This document shows positions 30,172 through 60,740 of a DNA stretch of 64,000 nucleotides, piece by piece. The first letter of the stretch is position 1, and every line of letters begins with the position of its first letter. Position numbers and translations under genes: made by a program. The notes beneath the pieces were generated by a model. It saw nothing but the letters and a program-made list of their open reading frames with translations. It was not told the DNA's origin and did not search any database. Origin of the DNA: Flavobacteriaceae bacterium (GTDB taxonomy: Bacteria > Bacteroidota > Bacteroidia > Flavobacteriales > Flavobacteriaceae); assembly GCA_027490305.1 (NCBI GenBank), contig JAIXYI010000023.1, forward strand, positions 1-64,000. Reading direction: 5' to 3'.

Positions 30172-30183
30172 GGGTAATGACTG

Positions 30184-30225
30184 CAAACCGTCAACCCTGA
30201 ACCTTGAACTCTCAACTACAAACTA
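30184..30225. repeat. degenerate heptanucleotide array (NNAACNN x6)
   Basis: CAAACCG TCAACCC TGAACCT TGAACTC TCAACTA CAAACTA; the last unit includes the stop codon of the phytanoyl-CoA dioxygenase gene. Confidence 0.6.
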
Positions 30226-31050
30226 CTTCAACGCCTCATCCTTATCCTTTTCCAGAAAGTCCATGCTGTCGGTCAGGCCGTGCGTAGCGCTGTCAAGCAG
30301 GGCGCTGTCGGGTACGACCTCGAGGGGTTTGATGCAACTGAGGTTGGGTTCATTATAGGGTACATTCGAGGCGCGGTTATAGCAGGAAATCAGGCTCCAC
30401 CGCGCGTGGTCTGACAGGTTGGCCTCTGAGCGGTGCAGGAGGTTGGGGTGGAAGAAAAGCGCATCGCCGGCTTTCAGTTCAACATAAACGAGCGGCATCG
30501 TCTTCAACGCCAGGTCGACATAGTGCTGCGAGGCTCCTACCTGCTCGCCGGAAAACCCATGTTCGATGCGGCCCATTTTATGCGTGCCTTTTATAACCTG
30601 CAGGCAGCCGTTTTCTTTGTTGGCATCCGTGATTGCCACCATTACCGACAGCATCTGGTCGGGAAACAAGAATTCGTTCTTATACCAATAGCCGTAATCC
30701 TGGTGCCACTCCCATGCGCCGCCCACACGAGGTTCTTTTTGCATCAGCTTCGAATGGAAATGGCAAACAGGGCCTTCGCCGTCCATCAACAGGTCGCCAT
30801 TGTGCACCATACGCTCTGATTTTGAGAGCAAGCCGTACATGTCGTCACCCGGTGTGTACCACAAGGTCAGTTTGGTCTTTTTGCCGGTTTGATCGTTTAG
30901 GTCGAACGCATTTCGGCGCATGACATCATCGGTTACTGCAATGTCGTGCAGTTTGCGTGTTTCTTCCGCGGAAAGAAAGCCGTTTACGATCACATACCCA
31001 TCACGGTGATAGGCGGCGATTTGGTCGGTGGTGAGTGTGGAATAGGCCAT
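30223..31050 (-). CDS. phytanoyl-CoA dioxygenase family protein
   Basis: QIAAYHRDGYVIVNGFLSAEE; WHQDYGYWY Fe-binding HxD; LFFHPNLLHRSEANLSDHARWSLI. Confidence 0.9.
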   Translation of the reverse strand: MAYSTLTTDQIAAYHRDGYVIVNGFLSAEETRKLHDIAVTDDVMRRNAFDLNDQTGKKTKLTLWYTPGDDMYGLLSKSERMVHNGDLLMDGEGPVCHFHSKLMQKEPRVGGAWEWHQDYGYWYKNEFLFPDQMLSVMVAITDANKENGCLQVIKGTHKMGRIEHGFSGEQVGASQHYVDLALKTMPLVYVELKAGDALFFHPNLLHRSEANLSDHARWSLISCYNRASNVPYNEPNLSCIKPLEVVPDSALLDSATHGLTDSMDFLEKDKDEALK

Positions 31051-31113
31051 AATTTTGTTGGTTGTGGAGGTGGTTTTAGAGAGTGTCGCTTTTACGCGCC
31101 AATGCTTTACGAA

Positions 31114-31247
31114 TTTAACAATAAGTACGGTTTTTCCGCACGGCCATGTCCGGCGGAATCAGTATTTTGGTATTGGGGAGGGGCCATGGCAGTCCCTACA
31201 AAATGCAGCGGAATTTTAGGTACGGGAAACCCGTATATTTTGTTAAA
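31114..31247. repeat. 134-bp intergenic repeat, copy 1 (MITE-like, imperfect terminal inverted repeats)
   Basis: Starts TTTAACAATAAGTAC, ends GTATATTTTGTTAAA; contains TACGGGAAACCCGTA hairpin; about 95% identical to copy 2. Confidence 0.8.
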
Positions 31248-31274
31248 GTTCATCATCCTTTCACGCCGGTATAG

Positions 31275-31408
31275 TTTAACAATAAGTAAGGTTTTTCCGC
31301 ACGGCCATGTCCGGCAGAATCAGTATTTTGGTATTGGGGAGGGGCCATGGCAGTCCCTACAAAACGCGGCGGAATTTTGGGTAAGGGAAACCCGTATATT
31401 TTCTTAAA
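31275..31408. repeat. 134-bp intergenic repeat, copy 2 (MITE-like)
   Basis: Same length with no indels; 7 substitutions versus copy 1 by eye; same orientation, 27-bp spacer. Confidence 0.8.
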
Positions 31409-31566: not shown

Positions 31567-32988
31567 CTACTTCTTCTCAAAATACGGACTCCGGAATCCC
31601 AGTCGTTTCAACCCCCTCTGTATTTCCGGGATCTTCATGAAGAGTTTCCAAATCAGGCCGCTGCGGTGGTTTTCAATCATCACCACAATCGGCCCCTGGT
31701 CAATCGCCAGATAGGTGTTCGACGACCAGTCGTGTCCGAGGTCAAAACCATCATGGAACCCGTATTCACCCCATATCTTACCGCCCAGTTCCTCATAGAA
31801 ATACCGCATCGCTTCCATGCTTTCCTTCGGTGTGAACGGCATCGATGAAATCGCGGCCGTTGGCTGGATGACGCCTTTGTCGCTTGACGGACTGTGCGCG
31901 ACATAGCCTTTATAGCTGTCGCCCGCCGTCAATCCCCAGCATTTGCTGCTATACCCTTTGAATTTCTTGGGGTTTTCGATACAATACGCCCGGTTGATGA
32001 GGGTATGGTTGCGGGCCTGTAGGGCGTAATCGATTCCCAGTGAATCCTTTAGGCCGTTGGGGTCGATTCCCTGGAAGGTGTACTGCTCGAAGAACAAAGG
32101 ACCGCCCTTGTCTTCTCCGTAATTCCCCAAAGGAAGTTCGAGTCCGTAATACTTTTGCGTATTCCGGAACCCCTGGCTTCCGACCCAGGTGCCGTCGTAA
32201 GCCGATTTCGGAATGGCATGCCAGTTCGACGATGCGGCAATGATATACGTGATCAGTGCCTCGTTCCACCCCCAGATCGGGAAGTTCATGTCGAAGCCCT
32301 GATAGGGCGACCAATGCCAGTAAAGCTTGGGCTCGTTGTTGGTGAACCATTTCCAGTTGATGGTGTCCCACATGTCGGTGATCCGACGGCGGAGGTACAC
32401 TTCCTTCTGCGTCTTTCCATCAAAATACTCGCGGGCACAGAGGAATCCCATCATAAGATACGACGTTTCGACCAGGTCGGCCGCATCGTCAAGACGACCG
32501 AACGGGATGGTTTTACCCGTTGCACCGTCCATAAAGTGCGGGAAGGCACCGTGGAACCGGTCCGCTTTCGTGAGGAAATCCGCGATCTGGATCAAACGGT
32601 CGAGAGCGGCGTCACGACTGATCCACTTCCGCTCGACGGCAATGACGGTTGAAAGGATGCCGAAGCCCGTGCCTCCCACGGCAATCGCTTCCGGGCCGAA
32701 CGAGCCTTTGCTAAGGTTGGGCTCGTCCCAGGCTTCGTTGATGTAATCCCAATAATAGTTGCAGGTAACGGTGTTGCTGCGCTCGCGGGCCATGCCCGAC
32801 ACCGGATGTCCGTAGTGCCAGAAATACCGGAAGGTTTGCCGTTGCACGGTTTCCATCAATTGCTCGTCGGTCAGTCCTTTGACGACACCCACCACGGGGA
32901 TTTTTTCGGTGACATTCGCTTCGTTCGGCTTCTGTGCAAACAACGCTGCACACGAGAGCAGCAGGGCGGAGAGGGTTATTTTTCCCAT
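31567..32988 (-). CDS. glucoamylase family protein (GH144-like)
   Basis: QTFRYFWHYGHPVSGMARERS, YWHWSPYQGFDMNFPIWGWNEALITYIIAASS, SMPFTPKESMEAMRYFYEELG, DQGPIVVMIENHRSGLIWKLFM. Confidence 0.85.
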   Translation of the reverse strand: MGKITLSALLLSCAALFAQKPNEANVTEKIPVVGVVKGLTDEQLMETVQRQTFRYFWHYGHPVSGMARERSNTVTCNYYWDYINEAWDEPNLSKGSFGPEAIAVGGTGFGILSTVIAVERKWISRDAALDRLIQIADFLTKADRFHGAFPHFMDGATGKTIPFGRLDDAADLVETSYLMMGFLCAREYFDGKTQKEVYLRRRITDMWDTINWKWFTNNEPKLYWHWSPYQGFDMNFPIWGWNEALITYIIAASSNWHAIPKSAYDGTWVGSQGFRNTQKYYGLELPLGNYGEDKGGPLFFEQYTFQGIDPNGLKDSLGIDYALQARNHTLINRAYCIENPKKFKGYSSKCWGLTAGDSYKGYVAHSPSSDKGVIQPTAAISSMPFTPKESMEAMRYFYEELGGKIWGEYGFHDGFDLGHDWSSNTYLAIDQGPIVVMIENHRSGLIWKLFMKIPEIQRGLKRLGFRSPYFEKK

Positions 32989-60562: not shown

Positions 60563-60615
60563 GGCGTTGCCGCTCATTCGAATCGATGGTTATAATGACG
60601 TATCCGGTTCGCGGC

Positions 60616-60699
60616 CCGGCTGTCCGCTATAGCTTTTTGCGCGGATGGTTTCGGGGTTCCGGGCGTTCCCACGGCGCAAAAAGGCTGCCGCTCCCATCC
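60616..60699 (-). repeat. structured intergenic element, copy B
   Basis: Minus strand: GGATGGGAGCGGCAGCCTTTTTGCGC ... GCGCAAAAAGCTATAGCGGACAGCCGG; 9-bp perfect inner stem TTTTTGCGC/GCGCAAAAA. Confidence 0.65.
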
Positions 60700-60740
60700 G
60701 TAACGCGGATTCCGTATCTTTGGGTACCAACCGTTTCACC

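Follow-up and report, generated by a model that had tools for sequence, protein, structure and literature searches.

A family of short MITE-like intergenic repeats in one genus of Bacteroidota

A pair of 134-bp direct repeats in a 64,000-nucleotide stretch of a Flavobacteriaceae genome (the whole stretch is called the window here) belongs to a repeat family that is new but of a known kind, is found in one genus of Bacteroidota, and has the size of the enterobacterial ERIC elements. We consider it likely that the family consists of short, non-coding, MITE-like intergenic repeats with an ERIC-like palindromic build. The literature searched, of which the accessible part lay mostly outside subscription journals, gave no description of the family. 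The name of the genus, probably Flavobacterium, rests on matches to the Flavo-1 RNA model and on general likeness.

Results

The repeat pair in the window

A sequence-only reading of the window had described two direct 134-bp copies with 7 differences and a 27-bp spacer, and alignment confirmed this description: the copies (Table 1) differ by substitutions at element positions 15, 42, 95, 98, 109, 114, and 133, with no indels. Chance was excluded as the origin of the pair, because a core 18-mer with up to 3 mismatches matched the window at the two copies only (0.03 matches expected) and copy 1 matched dozens of other places in the genome. The absence of an open reading frame accounting for the element also held, the 153-aa frame at 30946-31407 being without a Pfam match. 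Three details had to be amended. The terminal inverted repeats (TIRs) are present but are about 26 to 27 bp long and not 15 bp; the perfect hairpin TACGGG-AAA-CCCGTA is found in copy 1, whereas copy 2 has TAAGGG instead; and the GCCATGGC palindrome exists in the window pair but is peculiar to it, the usual core of the family being GGGGCGGATGCGTCCC.

Table 1. Positions of the repeat pair and its surroundings in the window, and sites of a second repeat type in the same genome
Feature	Position	Strand	Remarks
Copy 1 of the 134-bp element	31114..31247	+	Matches dozens of further genomic sequences
Copy 2 of the 134-bp element	31275..31408	+	Same orientation as copy 1, with 94.8% identity
Left TIR, copy 1	31114..31140	+	TTTAACAATAAGTACGGTTTTTCCGCA
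Right TIR, copy 1	31221..31247	-	
Left TIR, copy 2	31275..31301	+	
Right TIR, copy 2	31382..31408	-	Diverged (CTTAA, TAAGGG)
Core of copy 1	31162..31205	+	GTATTTTGG..GGGGAGGGG..CCCTACAAAA; part common to the species
Core of copy 2	31323..31366	+	
GGGGAGGGG in copy 1	31175..31183	+	GGGNAGGG pattern
GGGGAGGGG in copy 2	31336..31344	+	
Spacer separating the copies	31248..31274	no strand	27 bp
Flanking gene, PhyH dioxygenase family (context)	30223..31050	-	Pfam PF05721
Flanking gene, putative glucoamylase (context)	31567..32988	-	Pfam PF10091
Second repeat type	C67:73669, C34:105669, C34:175281, C51:28266, C53:8803, C53:105368, C11:6706, C64:16521		Eight sites in the source genome (contig:position)

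Degenerate 7-bp repeats (e.g., CAACCCT CAACTCT CAAC) were seen in intergenic DNA at about 30180-30230 of the window. Repeats of this type are frequent immediately to the left of element copies and occur in the left flanks of many.

Copies in the source genome

Further genomic copies, whose absence would reduce the pair to a mere local duplication, were readily found. A search with a covariance model of 37 copies gave about 48 dispersed copies in the source genome, the window pair included; the count is approximate, since several copies lie at contig ends (C46, C19, C22, C43, C34), where the assembly may have been interrupted by the repeats. Copy length is nearly fixed (132 to 136 bp), and the mean pairwise identity of 39 copies aligned with both flanks is 74%. 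By a simple ORF rule for gene calls, all copies are intergenic and clear of convincing genes. Where both neighbors were seen, the neighboring genes were in tandem in 26 cases, convergent in 7, and divergent in 4, showing no fixed relation to the element. The collection of genome contigs that was searched contained no exact match to a 22-mer from the core.

Seven local tandem groups were found, each with two or three copies in one orientation and with starts of neighbors 161 to 369 bp apart; one such group is the window pair. Identity within the groups is 89 to 98.5%, compared to the family mean of 74%. Because the members of all seven groups are such close kin, the adjacency of the window pair is best read, from sequence similarity, as a local tandem duplication of one insertion, in agreement with one of the options offered in the sequence-only reading. 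The dispersed copies are mostly 70 to 80% identical and so give no sign of current movement, a point against the MITE-like reading.

The TIRs of about 26 bp have the consensus TTAACAAAATnTGCGGTTTTCCCGTA, with TTAA outermost at both ends. Column conservation among the copies of the source genome averages 0.88 to 0.90 for the TIRs and 0.85 for the core (positions 49 to 92), with values of 0.56 to 0.71 in between. About 13 solo TIRs were also present, and 8 cases among them form a second repeat type in which the palindrome AGACCTCAAAGGTTTTnAAAACCTTTGAGGTCT is followed by one TIR about 29 to 35 nt on (Table 1); further solo TIRs are without the AGACCTCAAAGGTTTTnAAAACCTTTGAGGTCT palindrome. Target-site duplications, which the sequence-only reading had suggested looking for, were not seen outside TTAA at the flanks of these copies; TTAA sits at both ends and as a target-site duplication is indistinguishable from the TIR itself. 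An autonomous transposon bounded by the TIRs was rejected for the source genome, as pattern searches of the draft gave no TIR-bounded gene among the first 100 places listed.

Distribution among relatives and absence at an orthologous site

Among 399 further genomes sampled within the genus, 10 had clear relatives of the element (G113, G173, G187, G257, G284, G328, G334, G373, G406, and G422). An order-wide search of 398 genomes from 110 genera, the source genome included, with a cross-species model gave no match in the 397 others; the filters were fast and the candidates taken from each genome few, so that weak matches could be missed. An origin from plasmids, phages, or viruses was rejected, as no match was found in the collections of such sequences that were searched. 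The GC content of the DNA around the copies is 38 to 52% in the carriers and about 51 to 52% in the source genome; the value for the non-carrier G010 is about 34%.

The core GTATTTTACCTTCAGGGAAGGGGnnnATGnaTCCCTACGAAA is common to most carrier species, and the TIRs vary by species: they read TACGG..CCGTA in the source genome, TACAG..CTGTA in G406, and TGGTGTG..ACGTA in G257. The outermost TTAAC/GTTAA is absent in G373, G173, and G422, and the left boundary box is TTTAAG in several relatives.

In the source genome, the gap between rplY and pth contains a copy of the element, which was absent in 25 of the 25 relatives having both genes on the fetched stretch. The exact junction was unreadable owing to strong divergence of the intergenic DNA. 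In three tested relatives (L397, L403, and L416) the gap contains a Flavo-1 RNA (RF01705). Flavo-1 RNA is like our element in being intergenic in Flavobacterium genomes and in filling the rplY-pth gap, there in the relatives, but the element copies that were searched failed to match the Flavo-1 model. The one Flavo-1 match in the window (60609-60709, minus strand) lies elsewhere than rplY-pth.

Covariation of the two ends between species

When 43 sequences from 11 genomes are aligned, the left and right TIRs pair in 82% of cells, compared to 36 to 49% in slid controls, and show 113 double changes, compared to 63.4 in shuffles. The small palindrome within each TIR covaries across species as well. 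Within genomes, the two ends of the same copy do not match better than shuffled ends in the source genome (21.42/26 versus 21.60/26) or than cross-copy ends in G406, G257, and G113; in G187 the same-copy match is slightly higher, a value reached by 101 of 500 shuffles. For the inner palindrome, which is only weakly formed in G257 (0.57 of pairs) and in G113 (0.66), a copy-level signal is missing in the source genome, G406, and G257 and weak in G113 and G187. Mismatches of the G-T and A-C types are about equally frequent in the source genome (38 versus 42).

The combination of double changes between lineages with missing copy-level matching indicates one end sequence per lineage, present at both ends. 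This is what a coevolving DNA protein predicts and what selection on an RNA stem in each copy does not. The pattern therefore fits DNA ends recognized by a protein acting in trans, whose existence we infer from these alignments, rather than an RNA stem. No candidate for it came from the search for a TIR-bounded gene in the source genome or from that for a RAYT-type transposase in the source genome and four carriers.

The sequence-only reading had also considered a functional RNA. A structured RNA, an array of cis-regulatory RNAs, or a terminator working in both directions that is retained for its transcript would be in line with the conservation of the core across species, with the folding of copy 1, which is better than that of shuffles (z = -2.86), and with three hairpins in the pair that resemble terminators, some of them facing outward in copy 1. 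However, the folding of copy 2 does not exceed that of shuffled sequence (z = 0.77), no match to the curated covariance models of Rfam was obtained, and the gene context is not fixed. As the same-copy ends also fail to match preferentially and G-T mismatches are not in excess over A-C mismatches in the source genome, we regard this explanation as quite improbable.

Strand polarity

Replichores of the complete genomes G113 and G257 were assigned from third-codon-position GC skew after correction for gene strand. In the sampled stretches, every copy follows the strand presumed to be leading, which is G-rich (11/11 in G113 and 15/15 in G257). Where local skew was clear (|z| >= 2), agreement was 9/9 in G406, 6/6 in G187, and 2/2 in G334, some of these copies being in tandem and not independent. 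Polarity is thus strong in the relatives; in the source genome, 13 of 20 copies agree with the leading strand (p = 0.26), and contigs C15, C67, and C88 have copies in both directions.

The motif GGGNAGGG in the core has the letters that PMC2680272 gives for KOPS, the FtsK-orienting sequence, of E. coli. Within the elements of G113 and G257 it is strictly leading-strand biased, and outside the elements it occurs 28 times on the leading and 10 times on the lagging strand of these genomes (p = 0.005). In the same data, GGGNNGGG as a class gave 88 leading versus 43 lagging occurrences, G-rich octamers being biased in general, and GGGNAGGG is nearly absent in G010 (2 occurrences in 400 kb). On these grounds, KOPS appears unlikely as a genus-wide signal. 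The most strand-biased octamers were traced to one attC-like array.

The element might be a strand-polar chromosomal repeat whose conserved G-rich core GGGNAGGG stays on the leading strand in either replichore, owing to insertion into single-stranded DNA at the replication fork by an undescribed enzyme or to selection against copies in the wrong orientation; we regard this as rather unlikely. Polarity in the relatives also suits the single-strand mechanism of REP/BIME-like elements, in which a REP-like palindrome of about 26 bp would occur alone, paired in inverted orientation (the 134-bp element), or joined to a different palindrome and be moved by a single-strand nuclease of RAYT or IS200/IS605 type. 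The small covarying palindrome in each TIR and the existence of solo and composite units argue for such a system, and REP/BIME units, too, are palindromic, extragenic, and species-specific and occur alone or as inverted pairs, as far as described in PMC2817692. Unlike in REP/BIME systems, however, the Y1 transposase domain PF01797 is absent from the source genome (G000) and from G113, G187, G257, and G334, several of them copy-rich, and the inner palindrome is weak in two of these carriers. RAYT-dependent movement was rejected accordingly, and the REP/BIME-like explanation as a whole appears unlikely.

Comparison with integron attC sites

Integron attC sites have similar boundary letters and an imperfect palindrome. 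The copies, with ends TTTAAC...GTTAAA, could in principle be such sites or their scattered remains, and one integrase of the source assembly scores 237.6 bits against TIGR02249, close to the cut-off of 265. This integrase, however, is encoded on a contig of 15 kb that also codes for phage-like proteins and is free of element copies, and no integrase above the cut-off was found in any of the eight carriers searched. Tandem copies follow each other at 161 to 369 bp from start to start, with no cassette genes, several relatives have the left box TTTAAG, and an attC-like array in G113 is of different look. The attC explanation is largely refuted by these results and seems extremely improbable.

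The array in G113 (G113:C1:3200001-3220000) comprises about 25 evenly spaced attC-like repeats (TAACGTCCGGCGGCTTCACGTC...ATTGCGTGAAACCGCTGTTA) with 35% GC in a genome of 47% GC and has the look of an integron cassette array on the chromosome. The integrase contig of the source assembly (C85, 15.4 kb) is of high GC content and encodes a protein of 1796 aa that is phage-like; it may represent contamination or a phage and not part of a Flavobacterium chromosome.

Discussion

The proposal that the element is a non-autonomous mobile element is supported by the many dispersed intergenic copies, the TIRs, the restricted spread, and the absence at an orthologous site. Judged by the features of bacterial MITEs given in PMC2229807, the family is non-coding, shorter than 200 bp, and multicopy (134 bp, about 48 copies, no Pfam match), has terminal inverted repeats (about 26 bp, with own ends matching at 21.4/26), and differs in presence among related genomes at rplY-pth. 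The core kept between species is more than a simple internal-deletion MITE would need and was counted against the MITE-like reading.

In the mechanism that we propose for these MITE-like repeats, a trans-acting DNA protein, a transposase or recombinase, would bind both ends and would have spread the element to intergenic sites; it would be encoded elsewhere or lost by now. TTAA would be the target or else belong to the end itself, and the window pair would stem from local duplication of one insertion.

Among known systems, as far as listed in PMC2229807, ERIC (IRU/RU-1; 127 bp, enterobacteria) resembles the family in length and shares its intergenic location, many diverged copies, TIRs, and lack of an own transposase, but occurs in a different phylum and is listed with TIRs of 7 bp, compared to about 26 bp here. 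A target-site duplication was not seen here, and the relation to ERIC, compared by features alone, is one of kind and not of descent. The Correia/NEMIS elements of Neisseria are likewise short and non-coding with long TIRs (24 bp in the same source), but belong to another host and are listed there with a target-site duplication, of which we saw none beyond TTAA.

The ends of this new repeat family vary in step between species, which offers a way to search for the protein that would read them. If the polarity seen in the relatives is general, a small repeat family would be tied to replication or segregation.
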